A DNA stretch of 64,000 nucleotides, taken from contig NZ_CP102258.1 in the NCBI RefSeq assembly GCF_025146565.1, positions 3,938,001 through 4,002,000 on the forward strand, read 5' to 3'. A model generated the notes under the pieces. It was not told where the DNA came from, did not search any database, and saw only the letters and a list, made by a program, of their open reading frames with translations. This DNA is from Bacteroides eggerthii. GTDB lineage: Bacteria > Bacteroidota > Bacteroidia > Bacteroidales > Bacteroidaceae. Position 1 is the stretch's first letter, and each line of letters starts with the position of its first letter. This document shows positions 18,334 through 51,149 of this stretch, one piece after another. The position numbers were made by a program, and so were the translations under genes.

Positions 18334-19671
18334 ATGAATGCAGCAAAGGTATTAGAAGATCTGAAAAGACGGTTCCCCAACGAACCGGAGTATCATCAAG
18401 CAGTAGAAGAAGTTCTTGCTACCATTGAAGAAGAGTACAACAAACATCCGGAGTTTGACAAAGCTAATCTGATTGAGCGTCTTTGCATCCCCGATCGCGT
18501 TTACCAATTCCGAGTTACCTGGGTGGATGATAAGGGCAACGTACAAACCAACATGGGTTATCGCGTACAGCACAACAACGCCATTGGCCCGTACAAAGGC
18601 GGCGTTCGTTTCCATGCTTCTGTAAACCTGTCCATTCTGAAATTCCTTGCCTTTGAGCAGACTTTCAAAAACTCACTGACCACACTTCCTATGGGTGGCG
18701 GTAAAGGCGGTTCGGACTTCTCTCCGCGCGGCAAGTCCAATTCTGAAGTTATGCGTTTCGTACAGGCTTTCATGCTGGAATTGTGGCGCCACATCGGTCC
18801 GGAAACCGACGTTCCTGCCGGTGACATCGGTGTGGGTGGTCGTGAAGTAGGATTCATGTTCGGCATGTACAAGAAACTGGCTCAGGAATTTACCGGAACA
18901 TTTACAGGCAAAGGCCGCGAATTCGGTGGTTCGCTGATCCGTCCGGAAGCTACCGGCTATGGTAACATCTACTTCCTGCTGGAAATGTTGAAGACCAAAG
19001 GCACAGACTTGAAAGGCAAGACTTGCCTGATTTCAGGTTCCGGCAACGTAGCTCAATATACAGCGGAAAAAGTGTTGGAAATGGGTGGTAAAGTTCTAAC
19101 CATGTCCGATTCCGACGGTTACGTATATGATCCCGCAGGTATCGACCGCGAAAAACTGGACTACATCATGGAACTTAAAAACCTCTATCGTGGACGTATC
19201 CGCGAATATGCCGAGCAATATCCGGGCGTTAAGTATGTAGAAGGAGCTAAACCTTGGGGTGAGAAAGCCGACATTGCTTTGCCTTCTGCAACTCAAAACG
19301 AATTGAACGGCGACCATGCCCGTCAATTGGTGGCCAATGGCTGTATAGCTGTGAGCGAAGGTGCCAACATGCCTTCTACTCCGGAAGCCATCAAAGTATT
19401 TCAGGATGCCAAAATCCTGTACGCTCCGGGCAAGGCAGCCAATGCGGGCGGTGTATCTGTATCAGGCCTCGAAATGACTCAGAATTCTATCAAACTGAGC
19501 TGGAGTAGCGAAGAAGTAGACGAAAAATTGAAGAGCATCATGAAGAACATCCACGCTGCTTGCGTACAATACGGTACGGAAGAAGACGGTTATGTAAACT
19601 ACGTGAAGGGTGCTAACGTGGCCGGATTCATGAAGGTAGCCAAAGCCATGATGGCACAAGGCATCCTGTAA
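18334..19671 (+). CDS. gdhA: Glutamate dehydrogenase, NADP-type signature
   Basis: 445 aa, typical of hexameric bacterial enzymes that join ammonia and 2-oxoglutarate. The glutamate/Lys region is PMGGGKGGSDFSPRG (catalytic Lys-124). The nucleotide loop reads SGSGNVAQYTAEK and the following strand ends LTMSDSDG, as in E. coli GdhA, which uses NADPH. A second copy of identical length lies at 35685-37022 on the other strand, with a different nucleotide loop. A promoter (18255-18285) and flanking terminators show it is monocistronic. The symbol is by likeness; Bacteroides naming of the two genes varies. Confidence 0.92.
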   Translation: MNAAKVLEDLKRRFPNEPEYHQAVEEVLATIEEEYNKHPEFDKANLIERLCIPDRVYQFRVTWVDDKGNVQTNMGYRVQHNNAIGPYKGGVRFHASVNLSILKFLAFEQTFKNSLTTLPMGGGKGGSDFSPRGKSNSEVMRFVQAFMLELWRHIGPETDVPAGDIGVGGREVGFMFGMYKKLAQEFTGTFTGKGREFGGSLIRPEATGYGNIYFLLEMLKTKGTDLKGKTCLISGSGNVAQYTAEKVLEMGGKVLTMSDSDGYVYDPAGIDREKLDYIMELKNLYRGRIREYAEQYPGVKYVEGAKPWGEKADIALPSATQNELNGDHARQLVANGCIAVSEGANMPSTPEAIKVFQDAKILYAPGKAANAGGVSVSGLEMTQNSIKLSWSSEEVDEKLKSIMKNIHAACVQYGTEEDGYVNYVKGANVAGFMKVAKAMMAQGIL

Positions 19672-35684: not shown

Positions 35685-37022
35685 TTAGATAATTCCCTGC
35701 CCCATCATGGCATGGGCTACTTTCATGAAACCGGCTATATTAGCACCTTTCACATAATTGATGTAGCCGTCGGGTTCAGTTCCGTATTTCACACACTGGG
35801 TATGGATTCCATGCATAATGGCATGCAATTTTTCATCCACCTCGGCAGCACTCCAGCTGATGTGCATGGCATTCTGCGACATTTCCAAACCGCTGGTGGC
35901 TACACCACCTGCATTCACAGCCTTACCCGGTGCATACATAATCTTATTCTCAATAAAGAGGTCAATGGCCTCAGGCGTACATCCCATATTAGAAATTTCG
36001 CCTACACAAGTCACATTATTATCAATCAAGTGCTGTGCATCTTCGCCGTTCAGCTCGTTCTGTGTTGCGCAAGGCAAAGCGATATCCGCCTTTACCTCCC
36101 ATGGGCGTTTGCCCGGAACAAAAGTGGAGCCGGGGAATTCGTCGGCATACGGAGCTACAATATCATTGCCCGATGCGCGAAGTTCCAGCATATAATCAAT
36201 CTTTTCACCGCTAATACCGTTCGGATCATAGATATAACCGTCCGGACCGGAGATGGTAATGACTTTCGCTCCCAACTGGGTAGCCTTCGTAGCAGCGCCC
36301 CAAGCCACATTTCCGAAACCGGAGATAGCAACGGTCTTGCCTTTAATGTCAATGCCTTTGGTCTCCAGCATCTGATGTACAAAATATAATCCGCCAAAGC
36401 CGGTTGCTTCGGGACGTATCAATGAGCCACCGAATTCCAGACCTTTGCCAGTGAAAGTTCCCGTAAACTCACGTGTCAATTTTTTATACATACCGAACAT
36501 ATAGCCCACTTCACGACCGCCCACACCGATGTCACCGGCAGGCACATCCATATCGGGACCAAGATGACGCCACAACTCCAACATGAATGCCTGGCAGAAA
36601 CGCATCACTTCCGCATCACTCTTACCGCGCGGAGAGAAGTCCGAACCGCCTTTACCGCCGCCCATAGGCAGAGTGGTCAAAGCATTCTTGAAAGTCTGTT
36701 CAAAACCCAAGAACTTCAAAATAGAGAGGTTCACAGAGGCATGGAAACGAATACCGCCCTTATACGGACCAATAGCATTGTTGAACTGTACACGATAACC
36801 GAGGTTGGTCTGCACTTCACCCTTATCATCCACCCACGTGACGCGGAAAGTAAAAATACGGTCGGGTTCAACCAATCGTTCTATGATCTTTGCTTTCTCG
36901 AACTCAGGATGCTGATTGTAGATATCTTCGATAGAAAGAAGTACTTCCTTTACGGCTTGAAGATATTCAGACTCGCCGGGATGCTTTGCCTCCAAAGAGG
37001 ACATGATACGTTCGATATTCAT
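35685..37022 (-). CDS. Glutamate dehydrogenase, NAD-type signature
   Basis: 445 aa, the same length as the enzyme at 18334 and similar to it throughout, including PMGGGKGGSDFSPRG with Lys-124. The nucleotide loop differs: SGFGNVAWGAATKATQLGAK followed by ISGPDGYIYDPNGI, nearly the pattern of the NAD-specific Clostridium symbiosum enzyme. It is therefore probably the catabolic, NAD-linked paralogue. A -7 box TATATTTG (37102-37095, bottom strand) precedes a leader of about 65 nt. It is followed by its own terminator. Confidence 0.92.
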   Translation of the reverse strand: MNIERIMSSLEAKHPGESEYLQAVKEVLLSIEDIYNQHPEFEKAKIIERLVEPDRIFTFRVTWVDDKGEVQTNLGYRVQFNNAIGPYKGGIRFHASVNLSILKFLGFEQTFKNALTTLPMGGGKGGSDFSPRGKSDAEVMRFCQAFMLELWRHLGPDMDVPAGDIGVGGREVGYMFGMYKKLTREFTGTFTGKGLEFGGSLIRPEATGFGGLYFVHQMLETKGIDIKGKTVAISGFGNVAWGAATKATQLGAKVITISGPDGYIYDPNGISGEKIDYMLELRASGNDIVAPYADEFPGSTFVPGKRPWEVKADIALPCATQNELNGEDAQHLIDNNVTCVGEISNMGCTPEAIDLFIENKIMYAPGKAVNAGGVATSGLEMSQNAMHISWSAAEVDEKLHAIMHGIHTQCVKYGTEPDGYINYVKGANIAGFMKVAHAMMGQGII

Positions 37023-37312: not shown

Positions 37313-40282
37313 ATGCTTAGTAAGTTTAAATTAAACCAGCTATATTTCAAAGATACGCAGTTCGCCAACCTCATGACGCGGCGTATTTTCAATGTGCTTT
37401 TAATCGCCAACCCTTATGACGCTTTCATGCTGGAGGACGACGGACGCATCGATGAGAAAATCTTCAATGAATACACCTCGCTTTCCCTGCGCTACCCGCC
37501 GCGTTTCACCCAGGTTTCCACTTGCGAGGAAGCATTGGCGCAACTGTCTTCCATGCCATACGACCTTATTATATGCATGCCGGGCACAGGAGACAACGAG
37601 GGGTTTGACGTAGCACGAACCATCAAAGGTCAATACGAGCATATTCCCATGGTGATTTTAACGCCGTTCAGTCATGGTATCACCAAACGCATTGCCAACG
37701 AAGACCTCAGTTCGTTCGACTATATTTTCTGTTGGCTGGGAAACACCGATTTGCTGGTATCCATCATCAAGCTGATTGAAGACAAGATGAATCTGGAGCA
37801 TGACGTCAGTGAAGTCGGCGTGCAGATTATTCTTCTGGTAGAAGACGGCATCCGTTTCTACTCTTCCATCCTGCCCAACCTCTATAAATTCGTATTGAAG
37901 CAGAGTCAGGAGTTCTCCACCGAGGCGTTGAATGCACACCAGCGTACGCTGCGTATGAGAGGGCGTCCCAAAATAGTTCTTGCGCGTACCTATGATGAAG
38001 CAATCGGCATTTACGAAAAGTACAAGAACAACATCCTTGGAGTCATTACGGACGTCCGTTTTCCCCGCGTAGAACGTGGTGAGAAAGATGCGCTTGCGGG
38101 TATAAAATTATGTGCGGCCATACGCAAGGAAGACCCGTTCGTGCCATTGATCATACAATCTTCCGAATCGGAAAATGTGTTGTATGCAGCCAAATATGAC
38201 GCAGCCTTTATCGATAAGAACTCCAAGAAAATGGATGTGGACTTACGCCGTATCGTATCGGATAATTTCGGTTTCGGCGACTTTATCTTCCGCAATCCCG
38301 ATACGCTGGAAGAGATTGCCCGCGTCAAAAACCTGAAAGAGCTCCAGAACATTCTCTTTGCTGTTCCGGCGGAGTCATTCCTCTATCACATCAGCCGCAA
38401 CCATGTGAGCCGCTGGCTTTATTCACGCGCCATGTTCCCCATTGGAGAGTTCTTGAAACCTATCACATGGAACAGCCTTCAGGATGTGGACGCTCACCGT
38501 AAGATCATTTTCGAGGCTATCGTGAAGTACCGCAAAATGAAAAACCAGGGTGTGGTGGCGGTATTCAAACGCGACCGTTTTGACCGCTACTCGAACTTTG
38601 CCCGCATCGGCGACGGCTCATTGGGCGGGAAAGGCCGCGGCTTGGCATTTATCGACAATATGGTGAAGCACCACCCTGAATTTGAAGAGTTTGAGAATGC
38701 ACGCGTTGCCATACCCAAGACCGTAGTGCTCTGTACAGATGTATTCGACGAGTTCATGGATACCAACAACCTGTATCAGATAGCCCTGTCCGATGCAGAT
38801 GATGATGTGATTCTCCGCTACTTCCTGAAAGCCAAACTGCCCGACCGTCTGGTTGAGGACTTTTTCACTTTCTTCGATGTAGTGAAATCGCCCATTGCCA
38901 TCCGTTCTTCCTCTCTATTGGAAGATTCGCACTACCAGCCTTTCGCCGGGATCTACAATACTTATATGATTCCCTACCTGGACGATAAGTATGAAATGCT
39001 CCGCATGCTCAGTGATGCAATCAAAGGAGTTTACGCCTCTGTATATTTCCGCGACTCCAAAGCCTATATGCAGGCCACAAGCAATGTCATCGACCAGGAA
39101 AAGATGGCTGTCATCCTGCAAGAAGTGGTGGGCAACCAGTACGGTGACCGCTATTATCCTTCCATGTCGGGTGTGGCACGTTCGCTCAACTACTACCCCA
39201 TCGGAGATGAGAGAGCGGAAGAAGGCATCGTAAACCTGGCGCTCGGCTTGGGTAAGTATATCGTGGACGGCGGCATGACCCTCCGTTTCTCTCCCTATCA
39301 TCCCAACCAAGTCCTGCAAACCAGTGAAATGGAAATTGCACTGAAAGAAACCCAGACGCGCTTCTACGCTCTCGACTTGCGCAATGCCGGCCATGATTTC
39401 TCTATCGATGACGGCTTCAACCTGTTGAAACTGCACGTAAAAGAAGCGGAAAAAGACGGTTCGCTCAACTATATAGCTTCCACCTACGACCCGTATGACC
39501 AGATTATCCGCGACGGTTTATATCCGGGAGGGCGCAAAGTTATTACCTTCGCCAATATCCTGCAACATGATGTGTTTCCACTGTCCCGCATCCTGCAACT
39601 GGCATTGAAGTATGGGCAGCAGGAAATGCGTCGTCCCGTAGAGATTGAATTTGCAGCTACCATGAGCCGGGAAAAAGACAAGACAGGCACTTTCTATCTC
39701 CTGCAGATCCGCCCGATTGTCGACAGCAAGGAGATGCTCGATGAAGATCTCACAGCTATCCCCGACGAGCAATTGCTGCTCCGTTCCAATAATTCCTTAG
39801 GGCATGGAATCATGAACGAACTGCAAGATGTGGTCTATGTAAAGACCGATGATTACAGCGCTTCCCACAATCAGGATATTGCCTGGGAGATAGAAAAGCT
39901 GAACCAGCAATTCTTGAATGAAGGAAAGAATTATGTCCTGATAGGTCCGGGACGTTGGGGTAGCAGTGACACGTGGCTCGGAATTCCTGTTAAATGGCCG
40001 CATATCAGTGCAGCGCGCATCATTGTAGAAGCCGGGCTGACGAATTATCGCGTCGATCCCAGTCAGGGGACACACTTTTTTCAGAACCTGACTTCCTTCG
40101 GAGTAGGCTATTTCACGATCAATGCTTTTATGAACGACGGAGTATACAATCAGGACTTCTTGAATACGCAACCTGCTGTGCATGAGACTAAATACCTGCG
40201 CCATGTCCATTTTGAACATCCGATAGTGGCCAAGATGGACGGGAAAAAGAAACAAGGAGTGGTATTGCTGCCCGATTCCTAA
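37313..40282 (+). CDS. Two-receiver-like, ATP-grasp (PPDK_N) protein without PEP-synthase catalytic domains
   Basis: 989 aa. Residues about 25-125 and 165-300 look like two receiver-type folds (YDLIICMPGTGDNEGFDVA, then ILGVITDVRFPRVE and VPLIIQSSES). From about 430 to 805 is a PPDK N-terminal ATP-grasp domain (GDGSLGGKGRGLAFI at 433, PIAIRSSSLLEDS at 528, FYLLQIRPIVD at its end). The C-terminal 180 residues are unassigned (VLIGPGRWGSSDTWLGIPV is notable). The swivelling phospho-His domain and the PEP/pyruvate TIM barrel are absent, so the common label of PEP synthase should not be used. It may be a signalling phosphotransferase. Monocistronic, with a terminator after it. Confidence 0.75.
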   Translation: MLSKFKLNQLYFKDTQFANLMTRRIFNVLLIANPYDAFMLEDDGRIDEKIFNEYTSLSLRYPPRFTQVSTCEEALAQLSSMPYDLIICMPGTGDNEGFDVARTIKGQYEHIPMVILTPFSHGITKRIANEDLSSFDYIFCWLGNTDLLVSIIKLIEDKMNLEHDVSEVGVQIILLVEDGIRFYSSILPNLYKFVLKQSQEFSTEALNAHQRTLRMRGRPKIVLARTYDEAIGIYEKYKNNILGVITDVRFPRVERGEKDALAGIKLCAAIRKEDPFVPLIIQSSESENVLYAAKYDAAFIDKNSKKMDVDLRRIVSDNFGFGDFIFRNPDTLEEIARVKNLKELQNILFAVPAESFLYHISRNHVSRWLYSRAMFPIGEFLKPITWNSLQDVDAHRKIIFEAIVKYRKMKNQGVVAVFKRDRFDRYSNFARIGDGSLGGKGRGLAFIDNMVKHHPEFEEFENARVAIPKTVVLCTDVFDEFMDTNNLYQIALSDADDDVILRYFLKAKLPDRLVEDFFTFFDVVKSPIAIRSSSLLEDSHYQPFAGIYNTYMIPYLDDKYEMLRMLSDAIKGVYASVYFRDSKAYMQATSNVIDQEKMAVILQEVVGNQYGDRYYPSMSGVARSLNYYPIGDERAEEGIVNLALGLGKYIVDGGMTLRFSPYHPNQVLQTSEMEIALKETQTRFYALDLRNAGHDFSIDDGFNLLKLHVKEAEKDGSLNYIASTYDPYDQIIRDGLYPGGRKVITFANILQHDVFPLSRILQLALKYGQQEMRRPVEIEFAATMSREKDKTGTFYLLQIRPIVDSKEMLDEDLTAIPDEQLLLRSNNSLGHGIMNELQDVVYVKTDDYSASHNQDIAWEIEKLNQQFLNEGKNYVLIGPGRWGSSDTWLGIPVKWPHISAARIIVEAGLTNYRVDPSQGTHFFQNLTSFGVGYFTINAFMNDGVYNQDFLNTQPAVHETKYLRHVHFEHPIVAKMDGKKKQGVVLLPDS

Positions 40283-40340
40283 CGTATTGTTGTTAAAAAT
40301 AAGCAAAAAAAGCAATGACAGGCTCTTCTTTTTTTGCTGG

Positions 40341-40370
40341 AAATGGAACAAATGATGTTCCATTTTTCAT
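40341..40370 (+). terminator. Terminator after the ATP-grasp protein gene
   Basis: AAATGGAAC (40341-40349) pairs with GTTCCATTT (40357-40365) around a 7-nt loop, followed by T-rich sequence. Confidence 0.75.
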
Positions 40371-40421
40371 TTTTGCATGTAAAACGGAGCTTTATAGGAG
40401 CTTTTTATTGCCTAAAAGCAA

Positions 40422-40429
40422 TATCTTTG
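40422..40429 (+). promoter_or_regulatory. -7 element ahead of the eight-gene lipoprotein operon
   Basis: TATCTTTG, a full match to TAnnTTTG, 48 bases before the first ATG at 40478. No good TTTG -33 box is at the expected distance, so an activator or alternative factor may be needed. Confidence 0.4.
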
Positions 40430-40477
40430 TACCCGAAAAGAGAACTAATAAGTGAAAAAGATAATCAAGTTTTGCAA

Positions 40478-41914
40478 ATGGGCAACACACATGCAACTGT
40501 TCTAATCTTACTTGCAACAATGTGCACCCTGTTATCCGGATGTACTAAAGACAATGACTACACAGTCACAACAGGCAAGGGGCGCCTCAACATCAGGTTG
40601 ATTGCTGACGGCAGCACACAGGATGTAGCTACGCGGGTGGAAGAAACATTACCCGATATAAACGATTTTGCAATATCTGTTTTGAAAGGTGATGAAGTGA
40701 AATACTCCTGCGATAAGTTCAGCCAATATTCGGATGAAGTCTTATTTCCCATCGGGCAATATACTCTAAAAGCCTCTTACGGGCAACTTCATAACGAAGG
40801 ATTCAACAAGCCCTGCTTCACAGGTCTGCAAGAGTTCTCGATTGAAGACCAGAAGGAAACAAATGTGGAAGTGACCTGTCATCTTGCCAATGTCAAGGTG
40901 TCGGCCACTTATACGGAAAGTTTCAAGAAATACTTTTCCGATTACAGTCTGAAAGTAAATTCGGAAGGCAACTCTCCCATCCAGTTTGCCAAAGAGGAGA
41001 CACGTTCCTGCTATTTCAAGCCCGGCAAACTGACCCTCACACTGAACCTGACCAAAAGAGACGGCGGCGTCCAGTCCTCCTACCAGCCCATTGTTATAGA
41101 CAATGCGCTGGCACAACATCATTATAAGTTTAATTTTGATGTCAACGCAGGAAGTGCAACCGTAAACATCACCTTTACGGACAGGACCGAAACAGTGACG
41201 CACACCATTGATGTGTCAGACGGGACTATGCGTATAGATCCTCCTTTCTTCATACTTAATGGATTTACCAGTAATACGGCATTAGACATCAAAGAAGGAA
41301 AGGAAGCCGATCATCCTTTATCCTTATATTTGAATGCGCGTTCCGGCATCGAGGAGTGCATATTAACCACATCGTCCTCCTCGCTCATTTCACAAGGCTG
41401 GCCTGCCTATATAGATTTGGCCGACTTATCTACCGACAAGCTGCAATTATTGCAATCTTTCGGTTTGCAGCTTAAGGGGCTCGGAGCCAACAAAGACAAG
41501 ATTGCCACGATTGATTTCACCAACGTCATTCCCCATATAGAATATGACAACGGGGTTCTCAGCACCTTTAAGCTCGTGGCCAAGGACAAACTGAAAAAAG
41601 TGAATAAAGAGGAGGTTATATTGGCGATAAACAGTCTTAGCAACCAATTTGCAGTGGTTCCTCCCGAAGCGTTGCCATCGGGTTCCACCTACATTGACCT
41701 GGTGGTCACTTTGGATGGCAAACCGGAAACCATAAAAGCCAGTTGTATATTATACGGCGCTTCACAAGATTTGAAATGCGGACTTTTATCTACTGAAGGT
41801 GATGGCATCACACATCATATCCGCGTCACGTTCCCTGTCAAGATAACGTCATCCACGCAAATGACAGTAACCTGCGGACGCAAAAAAGCAACATTCACTT
41901 TATCCGTAAACTAA
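40478..41914 (+). CDS. DUF4493-like fimbrillin-type lipoprotein (operon gene 1)
   Basis: 478 aa from MGNTHATVLILLATMC; the frame is open further upstream but the signal peptide and lipobox (LLSGC, Cys-22) set the start. After the Cys comes a strand (GRLNIRLIADG) and then ATR with Thr-52/Arg-53, followed by the DUF4493-type block FAISVLKGDE, FPIGQYTLKASYG and VEVTCHLANVKVSATY. The C-terminal half (about 270-478) is further beta-rich sequence ending in a strand (KKATFLSVN-like). The Arg resembles fimbrillin processing sites. First gene of the operon; 19 bases before the next. Confidence 0.75.
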   Translation: MGNTHATVLILLATMCTLLSGCTKDNDYTVTTGKGRLNIRLIADGSTQDVATRVEETLPDINDFAISVLKGDEVKYSCDKFSQYSDEVLFPIGQYTLKASYGQLHNEGFNKPCFTGLQEFSIEDQKETNVEVTCHLANVKVSATYTESFKKYFSDYSLKVNSEGNSPIQFAKEETRSCYFKPGKLTLTLNLTKRDGGVQSSYQPIVIDNALAQHHYKFNFDVNAGSATVNITFTDRTETVTHTIDVSDGTMRIDPPFFILNGFTSNTALDIKEGKEADHPLSLYLNARSGIEECILTTSSSSLISQGWPAYIDLADLSTDKLQLLQSFGLQLKGLGANKDKIATIDFTNVIPHIEYDNGVLSTFKLVAKDKLKKVNKEEVILAINSLSNQFAVVPPEALPSGSTYIDLVVTLDGKPETIKASCILYGASQDLKCGLLSTEGDGITHHIRVTFPVKITSSTQMTVTCGRKKATFTLSVN

Positions 41915-41933
41915 TTGAACATATACTTTCGAT

Positions 41934-43208
41934 ATGAAGAAATCAGTATGCATAATAGTACTCTCTTTAGTGTATGTGCTCGCATTTGTTTCATGCGAGC
42001 GTGAGCAATACTCCACCGAAGAGGGAAATAAGGTAGAAACAGTTTCGGAAGGGCAGATAAACCTTTCTTCCTTGAAACTGACGGTAAACGTCAACGCCAA
42101 TGCTGCAACACGTGCCGATATAGATACAAAAAACTATATCATCCGCATCTATAATCGTGACAACGATAACAAACTCGTACAAGAATGGAAATACAGTGAG
42201 ATGCCGGAGATTTTCTCATTAAAGGTGGGCAACTACACCGTAGCCGCATTCTCGCACGATGTTCTTCCCGCCGAGTTCGAGCATCCCTATTACTACGGGA
42301 AAGAAGACTTTGAAATCCTAAAAGACCAAATCACCGACATCATAGACCTGCAATGCGTATTGCGCAGCGTCATGGTGACAGTGGAGTATGACGAAAAGCT
42401 ACTGACCCTATTGGGCAATGATGTAAAGGCAAATGTCACTTTAGGCCAAGGCTCACTGGATTTTGTAAAAGATGAAACACGCGCCGGTTACTATCAGGCG
42501 ATCAATGAAAACGCCAATGTAATCACCACACGCCTCACCGGAACCGTAGAGGGTGAAAGCGTGGATATATCAAAAGGATTTCCGCAAGTGAAAGCAGGCG
42601 CCCATAAGATTATCAGATATACACTGAAAGATGTGGACGAAAACGGCAGCTCCGAGGGAGGCAATGCGGACATCAGCATCCGAATCGACGTGACTTGCAC
42701 CACCGTAGAGCAGGATATCATAGTAGACCCCGATGAAGATATCGTTCCCGACGAGCCCGATGAGCCGGACAACCCGGACAATCCTTCCGGAGAGCAACCC
42801 ACCATCAAGGGGGACGGATTCAACATATCCAAAGCTATCGTATTGCCTGAGACGACCTCTCCCGATAATCCTTATCCGGTAGTGGTGAACATCGCCGCTG
42901 TCAACGGCATCGCCAACCTGAAAGTCACGATAGACTCCGACGTCTTGGATGAAGACGCATTGGCAGATGTCGGCCTGAAGAAAGACTTCGACTTGGCCCA
43001 TCCCGAAGAGCTGAAAGACGCCTTGGAAGGATTAGGCTTCCCCGTAGGCGAAGATGTTGCCGGAAAGACAGAGTTGATATTCAATATTACCAAGTTCACC
43101 GGATTATTGACAATGCTGAATCCCGGCACCCACAATTTCATTATTACGGTTGTAGACACCAAGAACAATAAGACAACTGAAACATTAACACTTGTCTGGA
43201 GTAACTAA
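41934..43208 (+). CDS. DUF4493-like lipoprotein (operon gene 2)
   Basis: 424 aa. Lipobox FVSC (Cys-21), a first strand LKLTVNVNANA, then ATR (Thr-59/Arg-60) and the DUF4493-type pattern (YIIRIYNRDN, SLKVGNYTVAAFSH, IDLQCVLRSVMVTVEYDE). A Pro/Asp/Glu-rich linker (DPDEDIVPDEPDEPDNPDNP, about 263-283) joins it to a second beta-rich domain (about 290-424) that resembles the C-terminal part of operon gene 1. Probably surface or periplasm facing. Six bases separate it from the next gene. Confidence 0.75.
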   Translation: MKKSVCIIVLSLVYVLAFVSCEREQYSTEEGNKVETVSEGQINLSSLKLTVNVNANAATRADIDTKNYIIRIYNRDNDNKLVQEWKYSEMPEIFSLKVGNYTVAAFSHDVLPAEFEHPYYYGKEDFEILKDQITDIIDLQCVLRSVMVTVEYDEKLLTLLGNDVKANVTLGQGSLDFVKDETRAGYYQAINENANVITTRLTGTVEGESVDISKGFPQVKAGAHKIIRYTLKDVDENGSSEGGNADISIRIDVTCTTVEQDIIVDPDEDIVPDEPDEPDNPDNPSGEQPTIKGDGFNISKAIVLPETTSPDNPYPVVVNIAAVNGIANLKVTIDSDVLDEDALADVGLKKDFDLAHPEELKDALEGLGFPVGEDVAGKTELIFNITKFTGLLTMLNPGTHNFIITVVDTKNNKTTETLTLVWSN

Positions 43209-43214
43209 CTATTT

Positions 43215-45392
43215 ATGAAACGGACTATTTATAACATATCGGCATTACTTTTTCTCATTCTCGCAACCACCGGTTGTCGCGAAAAAGACCTGAACGAGAG
43301 TGGGTTGCTCAGATTGAGCATCGGGATAAAAGACAAGGTGGAAACCGTTACCCGCACACTGTCCGACGAGGAACAGAATGCCTTGAAGGGAAATGCTAAA
43401 ATCCGCATATACAGCGGTAAAGGGCTTGTACGCAAATACAATGGGACAGCCGAAATGCCGGCAGAAATGCAACTTGCAGCAGGTGACTACAACATCAAAG
43501 TAGCAGCCGGTGACTCCGTTGCCGCTTCTTTTGACAAGACATTCTATCGGGGAGAAAAGGATTTCAGCATCCATGCCGGTCAATCCTCTTCCGTCAGCGT
43601 GGAATGCATCATTGCCAACACGCTGGTTACCGTAGAGTTTGCCAAAAGCCTGACGCAGGCATTCCAAAGCTACGAAGTGCAGGTAGCCTCATCGGCAGGC
43701 AGCCTGACATTTACCGCCGACAACCCCAATGCCATTGGCTATTACATGATTCCCGCCGATGACGCGCAGTTGTCTTGGACGTTCAAGGCAACGACACTCA
43801 GCGGAAATGAGTACACCCGTACAAATACCCTGACCGTTGCGCCAACCACACGCTACGACCTGACTTTCGGATATGAAGACAGCGGAGAAAGCTACGATGA
43901 CGGTGGTTCTACCCTGACACTGGACATAAATACCGAGCCATTAGAAACAAGCACCGTTGAGGTTCCGGTTTACAGGCGTCCCAGCATCACCGGAAAAAAC
44001 TTCGGGAATGAGAACGAGCTGTTTGTCGAATTAAACAAAGGTACAGAACAGGAGTTTTGGATAGCCACCTCTTCCATCCTGACAAAAGCTCTGGTAAGCT
44101 GCGACCAATTCACAAGTTTGGGACTCCCCGTCAATTCATTCGACATATTGGCCATGAATGCCGAGGACAAAAGCCTGTTCAGCAGCTACGGTGTGAACAT
44201 TGTGTCCAAGTACAATGTCAACACCGGTCAAGGTAATACCAAAATAGGGCTTTCGGAGGCCTTCATGCAGAAGCTGTCACAGAAAGAAGGAGTATATGAC
44301 ATACAAATCAATGCAACGGACGACAATAAGTTGCAACGCTCTTCTGTGTTCCGTTTCATCGTATCGGATGCAATAGTGGTCACCACTAACGTAATAGATG
44401 CGGAAGTATGGGCAACAAAAGCCACCATACGCGCCTCGTTGGCAAAAGAGACGGAAGAGGCTTTGGCCTTTAAATACCGCATAAAAGGTACAACGGGCGA
44501 ATTTACCGTTCCCGCTCAAAGAGTAAACGGTTCCAAACTGCTTTATGCCAACATCAAGAATCTGGCTCCCGGTACAACTTATGAATACTGGGCGCTGGCA
44601 GGAGCTTCGCCCTCAACAATCATCAGCCAGTTCACTACCGAAGCAACCACCCAATTGGAAAATGCGGGATTTGAATATTGGACAGACGGCACGCCAATGC
44701 TTGTTTTCGGTTCCGGACAGTCCATGTGGTGGGATAGTGGAAACCATGGTTCCGCCACTGCCAGCATAAACATCACAACTTACAGTACAGAATATAAAAA
44801 CAGCGGAAATTTCTCTGCCAAATTGCAATCCAAGAAAGCCGGCATGATGGGCGTGTATCAATTCGCAGCAGGCAACCTGTTTGCCGGGAAGTACATAGCT
44901 ACGGAAATGTCCGGTGTCAGGGGCAACGGCGTCTTGGGTTGGGGACGTCCTTTCAGCTCCCGCCCCGTAGCCTTGAAAGGTTACATCCGCTACGAGCCCA
45001 AAGCAGTCGACATGACCAACAATTGCAGCTACATCAATGCGGGCGATATGGACAAAGGGTGCATATACATCGCTTTGGGCGACTGGGTAGGCGAGACAGC
45101 CAACGGTGAGACATGGCCCGTCATCGTTAAAACCAATTTCAAAGACGGCAACAGCGCCAAGCTCTTCAATCCCAACGACATTCACATCATTGCCTATGGT
45201 GAAAAGACGTGGGATGAAGCCACCGCCGGAGACGGGATGGTTGAGTTCGAGATTCCCATCGAGTATCGCAACATGGATACCAAGCCCACCAGTATCGTGC
45301 TGGTAGCTTCCTCCAGCAAATACGGAGACTATTTCACAGGCGGCGTAGACAGTACAATGTGGCTCGACGATCTTAAGTTGGTATATGAATAA
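43215..45392 (+). CDS. DUF4493 plus PCMD-type lipoprotein (operon gene 3)
   Basis: 725 aa, the largest product of the operon. Lipobox TTGC (Cys-21), first strand LLRLSIGI, VTR (Thr-46/Arg-47), then DUF4493-type sequence to about 230. A middle beta-rich region (to about 385) matches the domain in genes 1 and 2. A fibronectin-III-like domain (about 390-475, with NLAPGTTYEYWALAG) leads into a PCMD-type domain (about 478-725; FEYWTDG, AAGNLFAGKY, YIALGDW, ASSSKYGDYFTGG). The PCMD family is described as putatively carbohydrate-related; a glycan-binding tip is inference. Confidence 0.78.
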   Translation: MKRTIYNISALLFLILATTGCREKDLNESGLLRLSIGIKDKVETVTRTLSDEEQNALKGNAKIRIYSGKGLVRKYNGTAEMPAEMQLAAGDYNIKVAAGDSVAASFDKTFYRGEKDFSIHAGQSSSVSVECIIANTLVTVEFAKSLTQAFQSYEVQVASSAGSLTFTADNPNAIGYYMIPADDAQLSWTFKATTLSGNEYTRTNTLTVAPTTRYDLTFGYEDSGESYDDGGSTLTLDINTEPLETSTVEVPVYRRPSITGKNFGNENELFVELNKGTEQEFWIATSSILTKALVSCDQFTSLGLPVNSFDILAMNAEDKSLFSSYGVNIVSKYNVNTGQGNTKIGLSEAFMQKLSQKEGVYDIQINATDDNKLQRSSVFRFIVSDAIVVTTNVIDAEVWATKATIRASLAKETEEALAFKYRIKGTTGEFTVPAQRVNGSKLLYANIKNLAPGTTYEYWALAGASPSTIISQFTTEATTQLENAGFEYWTDGTPMLVFGSGQSMWWDSGNHGSATASINITTYSTEYKNSGNFSAKLQSKKAGMMGVYQFAAGNLFAGKYIATEMSGVRGNGVLGWGRPFSSRPVALKGYIRYEPKAVDMTNNCSYINAGDMDKGCIYIALGDWVGETANGETWPVIVKTNFKDGNSAKLFNPNDIHIIAYGEKTWDEATAGDGMVEFEIPIEYRNMDTKPTSIVLVASSSKYGDYFTGGVDSTMWLDDLKLVYE

Positions 45393-45404
45393 TCCGATAT
45401 TCTC

Positions 45405-46139
45405 GTGAAAAGGACTGTTATATATATATGTATCCTGCTGTTTATACTGCCTCATGCTGCCATGCAGGCGCAAGAGTTTAAACGGTCTATTGAGTTGAAG
45501 ACCTTTGTTCCCAAAGGGCAATGGATTCTGGGAAATTCCATTTCCTATTCGGAACACAATGAAAGCAACTACAACTTCCTTATTATAGAGGGCATCAACT
45601 CCGACGGATATACCTTTAAGGTGAGTCCGATGCTGTGCTATGCATTCAAAGACAATTTAGCGGCGGGCGGCCGTTTCAGCTATGCCCGCACACTCACCAA
45701 GCTGAGCGGAGTTACTATCAATGTAGATGACGACAACCAATTCGATCTGGACGACATGTACCAGTTGAAACATTCCTATGCAGCTATGGCAATGATGCGC
45801 AGCTACATCAGTCTGGGAAACAGCAAGCGCTTCGGACTCTATTGCGACATACAGCTGCAAATGGGTGGCAGCCAGTCCAAGGTGGTCAGCGGTACGGGCG
45901 AAGACGTTACAGGTACCTATTCCACTTCAACCGATCTCAACATCGGCGTAGCTCCGGGAATGGTTGCATTCATCAACAACTATACGGCAGTAGAGGTCAG
46001 CGTAGGCGTATTGGGTTTCGACTTTAGCAAAACCCGGCAAACGACGAACCAAGTATATATAGGCGAACGTTCCCTTAATTCCGCGAATTTCCGCATCAAC
46101 CTGTTTTCCATAGGCTTGGGCATCGCATTTTATTTGTAA
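45405..46139 (+). CDS. Small outer-membrane barrel-like protein (operon gene 4)
   Basis: 244 aa with a GTG start, the only one possible after the in-frame stop of gene 3. A signal peptide ends near MQAQ. The rest alternates short amphipathic strands with polar turns (VPKGQWILGNSISYSEH, KVSPMLCYAFKDNLAAGGRFSY) and ends in a hydrophobic strand with a final aromatic-aliphatic pair (IAFYL), as outer-membrane barrels do. It is related to gene 5. It may anchor or export the lipoproteins, or be a surface porin-like partner. No catalytic motif. Confidence 0.7.
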   Translation: MKRTVIYICILLFILPHAAMQAQEFKRSIELKTFVPKGQWILGNSISYSEHNESNYNFLIIEGINSDGYTFKVSPMLCYAFKDNLAAGGRFSYARTLTKLSGVTINVDDDNQFDLDDMYQLKHSYAAMAMMRSYISLGNSKRFGLYCDIQLQMGGSQSKVVSGTGEDVTGTYSTSTDLNIGVAPGMVAFINNYTAVEVSVGVLGFDFSKTRQTTNQVYIGERSLNSANFRINLFSIGLGIAFYL

Positions 46140-46144
46140 GAAAG

Positions 46145-47050
46145 ATGAAGAAACGAACGATACTGACATATGTACTCTGTGGCATGGCAAGCATTTGTTT
46201 CGCACATACACAAACGGGTGATACGCTCCGTTCCATAAGCGGCCGCGATTCACTGATCCGCGAAACGGTGTTTGTGCATGATACAGTCTACCTGCAAGCG
46301 CCAAAGACAACAGCCAAACCGGAAGATATAATCCGCACCAAGGCTATTGGACGTTACGACCGCGGCATCATCAACTACCGTTTCATACCCAAAGGCAAAT
46401 GGATTGGCGGAGCTACGGCATCCTATGTGGATTTTGACAGTCAGGACAGCCGCCTGTTGTTCTCTTTGCTGAAAGATTTCGATTGCCATGCCCGCACAGT
46501 TTCTGTGAAGCCGTTCATCGGATATGCCGTACGGAACAACATCGTCATCGGTGCCAAGCTGGGCTATAACCACACCGTTGCCCAGTTGGATAATCTGGCT
46601 CTGAACATGGACGACCTCGATTTTTCACTAAAGGACATACGCTATACGGAAGATACTTACAGCCTTGGGCTTTTCCACCGTTCCTATGTAGGGCTGGATG
46701 CCGGCAGACGTTTCGGGCTGTTCAACGAAACAACGCTTTCATTCAATACGGGCACCACGCGGTTCTCTCGTGGCACAGAAAATGCCGAAGCGGCAGCAAC
46801 TGATTCGGAAAACGCTTTCAAAAGTACAGAAACCACGCTCTATGAGCTTCACTTGGGCATAAACCCCGGAGTAGCCGTATTTATCATGCAGAATGTTTCT
46901 GCCGAAGTCTCTTTCGGAGTGATCGGCTTTAAATATAGCAGCGAAACGCAAAAGAACAATCTGGGAGAAACCGGCAAGCGCCACAACAGCGGTGCGAACT
47001 TCAAGATTAATTTGTTCAATATCAATATAGGTATCACCCTTTGTTTGTAA
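46145..47050 (+). CDS. Paralogous outer-membrane barrel-like protein (operon gene 5)
   Basis: 301 aa with a signal peptide (to about CFA-H). After a polar N-terminal extension of about 65 residues it follows gene 4 strand for strand: FIPKGKWIGGATASYVDF against FVPKGQWILGNSISYSEH, KPFIGYAVRNNIVIGAKLGY against SPMLCYAFKDNLAAGGRFSY, and VSAEVSFGVIGFKYS against TAVEVSVGVLGFDFS. It ends ITLCL. The pair looks like a tandem duplication with later divergence. Confidence 0.7.
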   Translation: MKKRTILTYVLCGMASICFAHTQTGDTLRSISGRDSLIRETVFVHDTVYLQAPKTTAKPEDIIRTKAIGRYDRGIINYRFIPKGKWIGGATASYVDFDSQDSRLLFSLLKDFDCHARTVSVKPFIGYAVRNNIVIGAKLGYNHTVAQLDNLALNMDDLDFSLKDIRYTEDTYSLGLFHRSYVGLDAGRRFGLFNETTLSFNTGTTRFSRGTENAEAAATDSENAFKSTETTLYELHLGINPGVAVFIMQNVSAEVSFGVIGFKYSSETQKNNLGETGKRHNSGANFKINLFNINIGITLCL

Positions 47051-47060
47051 GATTGAGAGT

Positions 47061-48689
47061 ATGCATCAGAAAGTCTATATACAGATCCGTTTAGGATGTT
47101 TCTTGCTAATGGCCGCTTTCCTGAGCGCCTGCATCGAGAACGATGTACCCTATCCGTACATCAAGCTCTTTGTTACCGGCACTGAAATTGACGGCCAAAT
47201 AGGAAGCGCCGTCATTTCGAATGACGACCGCACCGTAACGGTCAACCTGGAGGACACCGTCAACATGAAGAAAGTGCGCGTGAAAAGCATCAGCGTAACC
47301 GAAGGAGGGCGTTGCAGCCTGCCTGACGATACGATTATAGACCTCAGCAACCCCTATCCGCTGACCCTCTCATTATATCAGGACTACCAATGGACTTTGA
47401 AAGCCAATCAAACCATTGAACGGCGGTTTACCGTAGAGCACCAAGTGGGCGCTGCTACATTCGATGAAAAGGAGCATTTCGCCTCAGTCAACATCAGCAC
47501 CAAAGGCAGTTTGAAAGACATCCGGCTAACCGACCTAAAGCTGGGGCCTACCGGCTCCACTGTCAACATGAGCAGCGGCATTCCCTATTTGGAATGGCAG
47601 CAAATGGGCAACTACGCCAAAGCAAACGTGGTGGTGAACTTCCGCGATTTCATTGTAATGGAAGAATGGACGCTCTACGTATTCCAAGTAGAGACCAACG
47701 TAGTCACCAAGTCGGCAGACGGTTGGGTAAATGTGGCATGGCTCTATGGGGAAGGCGTGGAAGGCATGGAAAACGGCTTTGAGCTGAAAGAGAAAGATGC
47801 AGAGGAATGGCAGCCGGTAGATGCCTCCTACATCACCGCCAATGGCGGAAGCTTTACGGCACGCGTTCCTCATCTGAAAGCGGGAACCTCTTATGTGTGT
47901 CGTGCTTATTCGGGCGAAGACAAGGGTGAAGAAATAGAGTTTACCACCGGGACGGCCGTAGAGCTTCCCAACGGTTCGTTCGACGAATGGCACAAGGTGA
48001 ACAAGGTGTGGGAACCATGGGCGGAAGGCGGCAATCCTATCTGGGACAGCGGAAATGACGGTGCAACCACTTTGGGCGAAAGCATCACTGTACCCACAAG
48101 CGACACATGGAGCGGTGCACCTGCCGGAGGACAGGCTGCACAGTTAGGCTCAAAGTTCGTCGGGCTGGGCGGTGTGGGCAAGTTTGCCGCCGGCAACCTG
48201 TTCATCGGCGAATATGTCCGCACAGACGGCACCAATGGCATTTTGAGTTTCGGCAAGGAGTTTACGGCACGCCCCACAAAGCTGAAAGGCTACTATAAAT
48301 ATGCCACAGCACCTATTACCTATCTGCCTTCCAAGTCGAATACGGACGACTACAACCGTTTTCTCCCCTATAAGGACAAGCCGGATACATGCGCCATATA
48401 TATAGCTTTAGGCGATTGGGACAAACCGGTAGAAATCAGGACCAATCCCAGAGACCGCAAATTGTTCGACAAGAATGACCCGCATGTCATCGCTTATGCA
48501 GAGTTCAACAGCGGTACGAGTGTGGACAGTTACACCCCACTGGAGCTGACTTTACAATACAAATCAACCAGCCGCGTACCCACTCATCTCATAGTGGTAT
48601 GCTCGGCAAGCAAATATGGCGACTACTTCACCGGAGGAGCAGGAGCCACGTTGACCATAGATGAATTCAGTTTGGAATATGATTATTAA
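47061..48689 (+). CDS. FN3-like plus PCMD-type lipoprotein (operon gene 6)
   Basis: 542 aa. Lipobox LSAC (Cys-24). Unlike genes 1, 2, 3, 7 and 8 it has no DUF4493 block and no Thr-Arg site; the N-terminal 200 residues are two beta-rich modules (TGTEIDGQIGSAVIS..., ASVNISTKGSLKDIRL...). A fibronectin-III-like domain (about 215-300; WVNVAWLYGEG, LKAGTSYVCRAYSG) precedes a PCMD-type domain (about 303-542; GSFDEWHKVN, AAGNLFIGEY, CSASKYGDYFTGG). The PCMD part is close to that of gene 3. Lack of a processing site suggests an anchor or assembly role, which is inference. Confidence 0.75.
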   Translation: MHQKVYIQIRLGCFLLMAAFLSACIENDVPYPYIKLFVTGTEIDGQIGSAVISNDDRTVTVNLEDTVNMKKVRVKSISVTEGGRCSLPDDTIIDLSNPYPLTLSLYQDYQWTLKANQTIERRFTVEHQVGAATFDEKEHFASVNISTKGSLKDIRLTDLKLGPTGSTVNMSSGIPYLEWQQMGNYAKANVVVNFRDFIVMEEWTLYVFQVETNVVTKSADGWVNVAWLYGEGVEGMENGFELKEKDAEEWQPVDASYITANGGSFTARVPHLKAGTSYVCRAYSGEDKGEEIEFTTGTAVELPNGSFDEWHKVNKVWEPWAEGGNPIWDSGNDGATTLGESITVPTSDTWSGAPAGGQAAQLGSKFVGLGGVGKFAAGNLFIGEYVRTDGTNGILSFGKEFTARPTKLKGYYKYATAPITYLPSKSNTDDYNRFLPYKDKPDTCAIYIALGDWDKPVEIRTNPRDRKLFDKNDPHVIAYAEFNSGTSVDSYTPLELTLQYKSTSRVPTHLIVVCSASKYGDYFTGGAGATLTIDEFSLEYDY

Positions 48690-48693
48690 AGAT

Positions 48694-50337
48694 ATGAGAA
48701 TATTACGTTACATATTGGCAACACTCGCTGTACTGGCAACATTCACCGCTTGCCGGGAAGAGGACGAATTGAACAAAGCGAAAGGCCGGGTAGTATTAGG
48801 AGAAATAAGGATAGAAGCAGAAGAGGCAAACACCCGCGCCATTTCAATTCCCACTCCTCAGCCCGAAGATTTAACCATAGAAATAATAGATCCGGACGGC
48901 TACACAATAGAAAGCGGAAAGATAGACCATTATGCCAATGGAATAGATCTTTTCGTAGCCTCATATACATTGCGTGCCTACTACGGCAATAAACAGCAAA
49001 TGGGGAATAGTCCCTATTTTGAAGGAATTGCCGAGTTTTCCATCTCCGAAGGGCAGACCACCCAAATAGGAACTGTCACTGCCAAACTTGCAAACGCTGT
49101 CATTATTCCAAACATACCTACCAATATCATAGACCACTTTATCGGCGTGCCCACATTCTATGTCTGTAAAGGAGAAGAGAAAAAAGAGGTTACTAACGGA
49201 CAGGCATTGTATGTGCTGCCGGGAGAATATACATTGACACTGGAAGGAAAGAATAAAGCGGAAATTGAGGTCAAGCAAACAATAGCCACATTGAACGCAC
49301 AAGCCCAAAAGGCATATAATATCAATTGCGACTTATCACTGCCTAATTTAACATTACCAGACCAACAGGCAGGTGCATGGGCAAAACGGCTTTATATAAC
49401 TCCTGCCACTGCAACAGATAAGAATGGAAAAGAAATAGATACGCCTAAAGGTATCATATACCAGTTGCTACCGGAGAATTCATCTGATTGGAGTACCGCT
49501 ATAACGAAAAAAGATAATGGGAACCAAGGAGACGTTGTTTTCACTGAGCTTGCTCCCAATACTACATATAAACTTAGAGCATCATTAGGGGAAGATATGG
49601 TAACTGATATTGTGCCTTTTACAACAGAAACTATCATTGATATTCCTAATGGAAGTTTAGATGAATATTCAATTACGGCAGGAAAAGATAATGATAATTG
49701 GGGAGGTGGAAGTCTTTTTTCTAAGGGGCGTGGAGCTGTTTATGAATTTTATTCAGATAGAAACCCTAACAACAGTCCATGGAGGACTAATAATGAAACA
49801 AAATGTCCTCTAAATACAGGATATATTTATAGTTGGAGTTCACGTTCAGGAACACGCCCTGATACAAACTCCAAATCCAATAATTGTGCAAAAATAATGA
49901 CGAGTGGATATGGGATTACCGGAGTATCACTGACAGCCCCCGATAGTCCCAGAAATGTAGCAATCGGCAGTCTCTATACCGACAAAGTGAATTGTAAATC
50001 AAGACCCTCAGCATTAGCTTTTTATTATAAATATATCCCATATAAGGAAACTGACAGCCCAATTATAAAGATAAATATCTATAACAATAATACAATAATA
50101 GGAAATGCACAACTGGTATCTTCTTCTTACGATAAAAAGTATCAAGCCGAAAAATGTAAATTAGTTATAGACTATCACAATAACTTCAGAGTTGAAGCCA
50201 CACACTATGAAATAATGTTTGAATCTGGAACAAATACAGATGTATATATGCGTGAGGATAGTAACAAGGATGATGAAATGCCAATGTTTATCGGCAGCGA
50301 ATTATTTATAGACGAAGTCGAACTTATTTACGAATAA
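48694..50337 (+). CDS. DUF4493-like plus divergent PCMD-like lipoprotein (operon gene 7)
   Basis: 547 aa from MRILRYILATLAVLATFTAC; an upstream in-frame ATG at 48661 would overlap gene 6. Lipobox Cys-20, first strand RVVLGEIRIE, NTR (Thr-47/Arg-48), DUF4493-type block to about 220, FN3-like domain (about 225-315; LAPNTTYKLRAS) and a PCMD-like C-terminal domain (about 320-547) that keeps the layout (NGSLDEYS, AFYYKYIP, LFIDEVELIYE) but little of the sequence. From about 49400 the base composition becomes clearly AT-rich, unlike its neighbours, which suggests the 3' half was exchanged. Confidence 0.72.
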   Translation: MRILRYILATLAVLATFTACREEDELNKAKGRVVLGEIRIEAEEANTRAISIPTPQPEDLTIEIIDPDGYTIESGKIDHYANGIDLFVASYTLRAYYGNKQQMGNSPYFEGIAEFSISEGQTTQIGTVTAKLANAVIIPNIPTNIIDHFIGVPTFYVCKGEEKKEVTNGQALYVLPGEYTLTLEGKNKAEIEVKQTIATLNAQAQKAYNINCDLSLPNLTLPDQQAGAWAKRLYITPATATDKNGKEIDTPKGIIYQLLPENSSDWSTAITKKDNGNQGDVVFTELAPNTTYKLRASLGEDMVTDIVPFTTETIIDIPNGSLDEYSITAGKDNDNWGGGSLFSKGRGAVYEFYSDRNPNNSPWRTNNETKCPLNTGYIYSWSSRSGTRPDTNSKSNNCAKIMTSGYGITGVSLTAPDSPRNVAIGSLYTDKVNCKSRPSALAFYYKYIPYKETDSPIIKINIYNNNTIIGNAQLVSSSYDKKYQAEKCKLVIDYHNNFRVEATHYEIMFESGTNTDVYMREDSNKDDEMPMFIGSELFIDEVELIYE

Positions 50338-50357
50338 CCCATAACCCTATATTAGCA

Positions 50358-51149
50358 ATGAAACAATATTTATCTCTCATTTTATTTCTCTTTCTTTTGG
50401 CAGCATGCGACAGCAGCGATGCTCCCGAAGCAACCGGGTATGGATATATCAACCTGAACATAGGCACCAATCCCGAAATATCCGTAGCTACGACACGTGC
50501 AGGGGATACCGATACGGATGTCTCCACATACCTGATTACCATTAAAAGCGGCACCACCACCTATCTGAGTCAAAAGCCTTATAGCATTATCCAATCCACT
50601 CCTTTGAGGTTTGAAGCGGGTACTTATAGCATAATAGCAGAAAGCTGCATAAGCACTGACGCTGAGTCGGCCAATGACCGTTGGGGCAAAGCGCGTTATT
50701 ACGGAAGTCAGGACATAACCGTTGTCACCTCACAAACCGTCAACGCAGACATTATATGCACCATGCAGAACGCCAAGGTCAATGTGGAATACGATCAAAC
50801 CTTCAAAGACATCTTCGGCAAGAACCCTGAAGAGCCGTATAGTGTCACCCTCTACCGGGAAGGGCGTCAAGAACGGCTTTTGAAATTTGATGAGAACGCC
50901 TCCTTCAGTACCCGTTCCGCTTATTTCAACATATTGGAGAATGCCAGCAACAAGCTCATATACACCATTACAGGTTATTACAACGGGAAGAAAGTGATGA
51001 AAGAAGGCGAAATAAATTCACTTGAACCGCAGAAATGGGTGAAGCTGACTATCAAAGCCACACAAACCGGAAAAATAGAACTGGGAGTGGCGGTAGATTC
51101 ATCGGTCACAGAAGAAAACAAGGATTTTGACGTGAATCCCTATGCCTGA
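50358..51149 (+). CDS. DUF4493-only lipoprotein (operon gene 8)
   Basis: 263 aa, the shortest of the five. Lipobox LLAAC (Cys-17), first strand YGYINLNIG, then TTR (Thr-46/Arg-47) and the DUF4493-type sequence (YLITIKSGTTTYL, FEAGTYSIIAESC, VNADIICTMQNAKVNVEYD). It stops after that domain, so it may be the simplest, perhaps main, subunit if the operon builds a polymer. Last gene of the operon; the next gene is on the other strand. Confidence 0.74.
   Translation: MKQYLSLILFLFLLAACDSSDAPEATGYGYINLNIGTNPEISVATTRAGDTDTDVSTYLITIKSGTTTYLSQKPYSIIQSTPLRFEAGTYSIIAESCISTDAESANDRWGKARYYGSQDITVVTSQTVNADIICTMQNAKVNVEYDQTFKDIFGKNPEEPYSVTLYREGRQERLLKFDENASFSTRSAYFNILENASNKLIYTITGYYNGKKVMKEGEINSLEPQKWVKLTIKATQTGKIELGVAVDSSVTEENKDFDVNPYA

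Follow-up and report, generated by a model that had tools for sequence, protein, structure and literature searches.

Type V pili, among them those of FimA, Mfa1 and the gut Bacteroides fimbrillins, are built from surface lipoprotein subunits with two beta domains and an N-terminal strand 1; each operon encodes several distinct subunits, and tip subunits carry extra C-terminal parts (portions of PMC5789003 and PMC12632263). A basic residue lies in or before the loop behind strand 1, and the sections of PMC5789003 used here describe Mfa1, Mfa3 and Mfa4 as starting after Arg49, Arg43 and Arg54, with a long, flexible loop between strands 1 and 2 in the cleaved subunits. The Mfa2 anchor, for which these sections report no Rgp or Kgp site, keeps its N-terminus, and two models were then open in which the donor strand is either the new N-terminus or the C-terminus (PMC5789003, same sections). 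Here we analyzed an eight-gene operon in a 64,000-nucleotide stretch of the Bacteroides eggerthii genome (the window), which shares these features although its five subunit-like proteins belong to a separate Pfam family, DUF4493. The operon may build an adhesive fiber new to study, and we tentatively propose, as a genuine possibility, that it encodes a surface adhesin that resembles type V pili but diverges from them, may be short and has an unusual base.

The operon occupies positions 40478-51149 on the + strand of the window. Its eight co-directional ORFs are separated, from gene 1 to gene 8, by gaps of 19, 6, 12, 5, 10, 4 and 20 bp when gene 7 is started at the ATG at 48694, in agreement with the 4-20 bp spacing given in a sequence-only reading that preceded this analysis. 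Pfam matches that exceed the curated cut-off place DUF4493 in genes 1, 2, 3, 7 and 8, and PCMD at the C-terminal end of genes 3 and 6; no DUF4493 match was returned for gene 6, and no enzyme family above cut-off for any operon protein. All five DUF4493 matches reported in the 4.2-Mb genome fall inside the operon, along with both barrel matches that reach E <= 1e-10 (8 of 16 candidates scored) and two of the five PCMD matches.

Gene 8 (class G; 50358..51149, +) encodes a DUF4493-only lipoprotein of 263 residues with Cys17 and Thr46-Arg47, and was modeled with AlphaFold (pLDDT 84.6). The predicted model shows a two-domain beta-sandwich pilin fold with an N-terminal strand 1 (residues 28-37), whose membership in the sheet was judged from alignments rather than from coordinates, and it aligns structurally with type V pilins across about 200 residues. 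Among the 33 Foldseek matches at E <= 0.001, 24 were adhesin, fimbrial or related entries from Bacteroidota. Behind strand 1 comes a loop of low confidence (residues 43-49) that contains Arg-47 (Thr-Arg codons 50493..50498, +), a placement like that in Mfa1, Mfa3 and Mfa4 (PMC5789003), and the sequence-only reading had noted this succession of a first strand and a Thr-Arg pair. A fold comparison with fimbrillins had been set beforehand as one test that could overturn its fiber claim, and the pilin-like model left that claim standing. The model suggests that the DUF4493 domain of gene 8 very probably adopts the fold of type V pilins, with its two domains; for genes 1, 2, 3 and 7 the fold was judged through the shared Pfam domain, with gene 8 as the single model.

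Remote sequence similarity was compared with hhalign profiles. An initial set with signal peptides kept gave 66.7% with Mfa_like_1 over 47 columns and 95% with a mixed Mfa2 set, and was replaced by trimmed profiles rerun on match columns only. Among the profiles tried, the best match of DUF4493 was to the Mfa2/FimB family (PF08842), over 114 columns at 10% identity and with a score above all 100 shuffles, and the fold also matched 5nfi of this family. The two nevertheless differ: the Pfam Mfa2 model misses the DUF4493 proteins, and these mostly have a basic site whereas Mfa2 does not (PMC5789003, in part). A PDB sequence search with gene 8 or the DUF4493 profile listed no pilin; one designed protein in it, 6czj (1.3e-4), was judged a chance match.

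The five DUF4493 proteins of the operon each carry a lipobox and a Thr-Arg pair, with signal peptides and lipoboxes called by simple sequence rules. All five genes lie on the + strand, and both the lipid Cys at 17-22 and the Thr-Arg positions claimed earlier proved exact. Gene 1 (class A; 40478..41914) encodes 478 residues with Cys22 and Thr52-Arg53, the codons of which (40631..40636) mark a candidate processing site by family conservation. Gene 2 (class B; 41934..43208; 424 residues) has Cys21, Thr59-Arg60 (42108..42113) and a C-terminal extension whose Ig-like character depends solely on a weak match in Pfam (E 0.07). Gene 3 (class C; 43215..45392; 725 residues) has Cys21 and Thr46-Arg47 (43350..43355), with DUF4493 at residues 28-249 and, at residues 486-723 (44670..45383), a PCMD domain that is a candidate binding module. 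Gene 7 (class F; 48694..50337; 547 residues) has Cys20 and Thr47-Arg48 (48832..48837).

The pair is conserved well beyond the window. A lipobox Cys was found in 208 of 214 DUF4493 proteins, the five window proteins included, and at least two acidic residues lie within six positions past it in 161 of the 208, in line with probable export to the surface. A [ST][RK] pair occurs 12-44 residues past the lipid Cys in 172 of 195 distinct DUF4493 proteins (153 Arg, 19 Lys) and is followed by Ala in 98 of these 172, so that the conservation check on orthologues likewise did not refute the earlier claim. Across the 195 proteins, [ST][RK] was present in 83% for the segment 12-42 residues past the Cys versus 18-46% for six later 30-residue segments, and [ST][RK][AST] in 68% versus 3-19%. 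Under a common lipobox rule, [ST][RK][AST] was found in 125/180 DUF4493 proteins and 7/47 other lipoproteins (Fisher p 1.7e-11, uncorrected for relatedness), and [ST][RK] in 147/180 and 15/47. Our alignment of 125 of 135 DUF4493 stretches plus gene 8 omits ten low-scoring, divergent stretches, and its consensus favors the Thr-Arg site because several of those omitted are without it; the 172/195 count is independent of that alignment. In the same genome, 11 of 12 Mfa_like_1 proteins have [ST][RK] (with T45 invariant and R46 in at least 90% of 11 aligned) versus 8 of 28 Mfa2-type proteins, and there is a single Peptidase_C11 (clostripain) match. Judging from these sequence patterns, the DUF4493 lipoproteins are likely cleaved at Thr-Arg.

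The remaining three genes, also on the + strand, set the operon apart from known type V pili, which are not known to pair two small barrels with a PCMD lipoprotein. Gene 4 (class D; 45405..46139; 244 residues, GTG start) matches Pfam OMP_b-brl at 2.3e-5, below the cut-off, and its predicted model is a small transmembrane barrel in the outer membrane that best matches the N-terminal domains of OprF and OmpA, its strand number being taken from the structural matches rather than counted in coordinates. It differs from these proteins in sequence (8-9% identity to the two barrels compared), and its Pfam matches at E <= 1 do not include the C-terminal domain of OmpA. Matches to FapF were weaker (E 0.002-0.007). 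An export pore for subunits was considered and set aside, since the model best fits the narrow OmpA/OprF barrels, and a role as anchor or partner therefore seems the likelier one for the modeled protein. Gene 5 (class D2; 46145..47050; 301 residues) has no significant Pfam match; it is an N-terminally extended homologue of gene 4 (E about 1e-34) and a barrel by this homology only. The suggestion that both barrels are outer-membrane partners is supported in part, by gene 4 as a predicted barrel of the narrow type. The barrel alignment kept 111 of 148 rows plus gene 4, after exclusion of barrel ORFs with X, with E > 1e-40 or on the minus strand.

Gene 6 (class E; 47061..48689) encodes a 542-residue lipoprotein that matches fn3 weakly (E 0.024) and has its PCMD domain at 47976..48674 (+). 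Its C-terminal 210-215 residues match the PCMD entries 3s30, 3hbz, 4jrl and 4het in the PDB (E 3e-10 to 4e-5). These structures were deposited as putative glycoside hydrolases, so the function of the relatives is itself putative, and they leave the N-terminal half of gene 6 uncovered. Within the best 80 of 507 stretches from the genome scan described below, the named relative nearest to gene 6 comes from Bacteroides cutis (88% identity), where the locus holds the same eight gene kinds as the window operon.

We next consider how far this arrangement is shared. DUF4493 was matched in 17 of 151 genomes of the family (own genome included), 16 of them above cut-off with 3-11 copies each, mostly in one cluster, and in 2 of the 10 genomes of the same genus in the table, again counting our own. 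Clusters were read from 15 other family genomes, leaving out the one with a weak match (G119), and genes were assigned by us to classes from their position and best window match on a simple ORF map: A, B, C, F and G for DUF4493 genes, D for barrel and E for gene 6. The order A-B-C-D-E-F-G was present in 8 of the 15; the other seven showed contig ends, ORF-caller gaps or variation. A FastTree tree of 191 DUF4493 domains (local supports 0.60-1.00) recovered classes B (52/52) and F (17/17) as exact splits and placed class G (16/16) inside a side of 18; class A (53/53, in a side of 70) and class C (38/51 in a pure side) were less clean.

We also scanned GTDB genomes with the gene-6 alignment and took the best 80 of 507 confirmed stretches; because the scan patterns sit in the PCMD region, the 507 may include other PCMD proteins. 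A barrel lies upstream of gene 6 in 78 of the 80 loci, two barrels in 75, and the last barrel is within 300 bp of gene 6 in 76. Where at least 8.5 kb of upstream sequence was available (63 loci), DUF4493 genes were found upstream in 46, and exactly three in 37, while downstream DUF4493 genes occurred in 6 of the 80, some loci ending early there. As upstream genes are common and downstream genes were found in so few loci, the eight-gene form of the window looks like the common six-gene A-B-C-D-D2-E form with genes 7 and 8 added. In 295 genomes of the order, DUF4493 was present in 34, a barrel in 29 and both in 25, versus about 3 under independence (a hand count). The gene order, which the sequence-only reading had proposed to seek elsewhere, thus recurs across Bacteroidales.

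Several loci depart from the common form. Five (L085, L087, L092, L118 and L082) are triplets of two barrels and gene 6, beside which no DUF4493 gene was found. Four others (L038-L041) are enlarged clusters from two genomes, G138 and G095, with 11 and 10 DUF4493 matches respectively; beside the core operon there is a 1425-aa ORF in the former and an extra barrel gene in the latter. Three loci titled Pseudoflavonifractor, Clostridiales and Clostridium (L081, L104 and L117) carry a Bacteroidales-type locus, which suggests mislabelled or mixed metagenome bins. Lone DUF4493 lipoprotein genes of about 420 aa (L186:5155-6429, L187:6666-7943 and L188:7550-8815) lie near what look by eye like sugar-nucleotide or exopolysaccharide genes in other Bacteroidales, and have Lys-Ser in place of the Thr-Arg of the operon proteins.

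Gene order, site conservation and co-occurrence were computed here, together with the predicted folds of the gene 8 DUF4493 domain and the gene 4 barrel, and a mechanism can be sketched around them. Genes 1, 2, 3, 7 and 8 would be exported to the cell surface as pilin-fold lipoproteins, where a clostripain-type Arg protease probably cuts each subunit after Thr-Arg, in the loop behind strand 1. The cut would release the subunit from its lipid and open a groove, and strand exchange between neighbors could fill the grooves to give a short mixed fiber. Extra C-terminal modules (PCMD in gene 3, others in genes 1, 2 and 7) might bind glycan or another ligand. Gene 6, with neither DUF4493 nor the conserved site, would stay lipidated and form the base with the two small barrels, and it may replace an Mfa2-type anchor. 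That the cleaved pilin-fold lipoproteins form a fiber we regard as falling just short of an even call.

A number of observations weigh against the fiber. A C-terminal donor strand is unproved, because the tail of gene 8 past its last strand is short (about 16 residues), of low confidence (residues 249-259 have pLDDT < 50) and not uniform, its terminal motif varying among orthologues. No Mfa2/FimB-type anchor (PF08842) was hit among the eight operon proteins at E <= 1, the Pfam models Mfa_like_1, Mfa2 and FimA have no hit in the five DUF4493 proteins at the same threshold, and the operon, unlike type V pili, has no clear long shaft subunit; with the anchor gene and fimbrillin models missing, it is type V pilus-like in anatomy yet non-canonical. 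The trimmed DUF4493 profile gave no match to Mfa_like_1 (hhalign probability 0.6%). Structurally, Foldseek TM-scores versus pilins are low (0.29-0.46 by query length), the rmsd is high (about 8-13 Å), and the top VIA Z score (9.7) belongs to a non-pilin domain, PepT2, across 97 residues. As to the site, [ST][RK] is also present in the 15 of 47 other lipoproteins mentioned above and in 27/93 gene-6 proteins ([ST][RK][AST] in 14/93), a few counted hits (such as class A of L067 and L072) are Thr-Lys outside the loop, and 23 of the 195 DUF4493 proteins have no pair. By eye, Arg follows a different residue in 12 of these 23, Ser-Arg stands a little further along in one, and Lys is present in one; the other nine, chiefly long upstream proteins from Muribaculaceae and similar bins, lack a basic residue in that place. 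Finally, 17 of the 63 gene-6 loci have no upstream DUF4493 gene by our own profile (one, L054, is partly masked), and 9 of the 34 DUF4493 genomes have no barrel. In the nine stretches read from these genomes, one each with second matches in G343 and G428 excluded, DUF4493 is a lone gene with no neighbor matching the barrel, gene-6, PCMD, Mfa2 or Mfa_like_1 profiles. The earlier claim that the five lipoproteins are fiber subunits is therefore upheld for the predicted pilin fold of gene 8 and the conserved Thr-Arg, and weakened by the absent anchor, the loci without DUF4493 and the lone genes.

These same observations give room to other explanations. A clostripain cut at Thr-Arg might free single pilin-fold lipoproteins to the medium or to vesicles, the fold being kept by descent with no polymer formed. 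According to a review (PMC12632263), clostripain at the surface not only cuts pilins but sets many other lipoproteins free, and fragipain likewise cuts and releases numerous surface lipoproteins; the site alone therefore cannot decide between assembly and release. Release would also suit the lone DUF4493 genes and the extra C-terminal part of several classes, since few of these could donate a C-terminal strand. We nonetheless consider released adhesins unlikely: five ordered paralogues kept together across genera are hard to fit with independent released proteins, and Thr-Arg falls in the same loop as in polymerizing pilins (PMC5789003, in part). One can also start from gene 6 and imagine a glycan-handling outer-membrane complex whose core is the two barrels and the PCMD lipoprotein, with the DUF4493 proteins as arms that keep their lipids and hold binding modules. 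The near-constant barrels upstream of gene 6 (78/80), next to DUF4493 in just 46 of 63 loci with enough flank, and the putative glycoside hydrolases among the PCMD relatives would fit this. The gene-6-seeded scan, however, is rich in Muribaculaceae bins, and in the more even order sample DUF4493 is missing from only 4 of the 29 genomes with a barrel, and in three of these 4 the barrel match is weak (E 1e-11 to 6e-20). We thus dropped the barrels and gene 6 as an ancestral core in its own right, a pattern that is partly an effect of the seed, and keep it only within this glycan-complex explanation, which we judge distinctly unlikely: the operon has no enzyme family above cut-off, the modeled gene 4 barrel resembles OmpA/OprF and not a large channel, and the conserved Thr-Arg loop is left unexplained.

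A chance resemblance, in which DUF4493 would be a transthyretin-like beta protein with no kinship to pilins and Thr-Arg just a common pair of loop residues, appears highly improbable. Beta sandwiches readily yield middling structural scores, and PepT and HGSNAT domains do match the second half of the gene 8 model, PepT with a Z as high as the pilins. However, the pilin matches span both domains and strand 1, about 200 residues in all, compared to about 90-98 for PepT and HGSNAT, the Mfa2 profile match beats every shuffle, and the Thr-Arg site is enriched over both later segments and other lipoproteins. Returning to the fiber, its fullest form would be a branch of the type V pili not described so far, spread widely though unevenly among gut Bacteroidales. 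Clostripain would mature its DUF4493 pilins, and a short fiber of several of these, individually decorated and with no repeated shaft, would have two OmpA-like barrels and a PCMD lipoprotein as its base; this complete picture we hold to be doubtful.

DUF4493 is still a domain of unknown function in Pfam, and the terms DUF4493, PF13201, 'putative carbohydrate metabolism domain' and 'PCMD domain' were not found in the CC0, CC BY and CC BY-SA papers of PubMed Central that were searched. Once the domain is tied to a pilin fold and a conserved processing site, these so far unexplained operons, which occur across Bacteroidales, can be tested as adhesion systems. Should there be a fiber, the result would be a pilus that differs in its base and mixes its subunits; otherwise pilin folds would be put to another use, for example release.

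A promoter was sought upstream of gene 1 and set aside: the region holds a -7-like sequence, TAtcTTTG, but nothing in it fits the complete pattern TTTG-N17-23-TANNTTTG. Inverted repeats within 39900-41000 measure only 10-13 nt. Directly upstream of the operon, window positions 37313-40282 encode a protein that matches a response regulator and has an ATP-binding domain of PPDK, and by eye a similar gene precedes the operon in three other loci (L053, L055 and L063). The window also carries two glutamate dehydrogenase genes (18334-19671 and 35685-37022), and a similar gene was seen by eye near the operon in L036, L042, L047 and L055.

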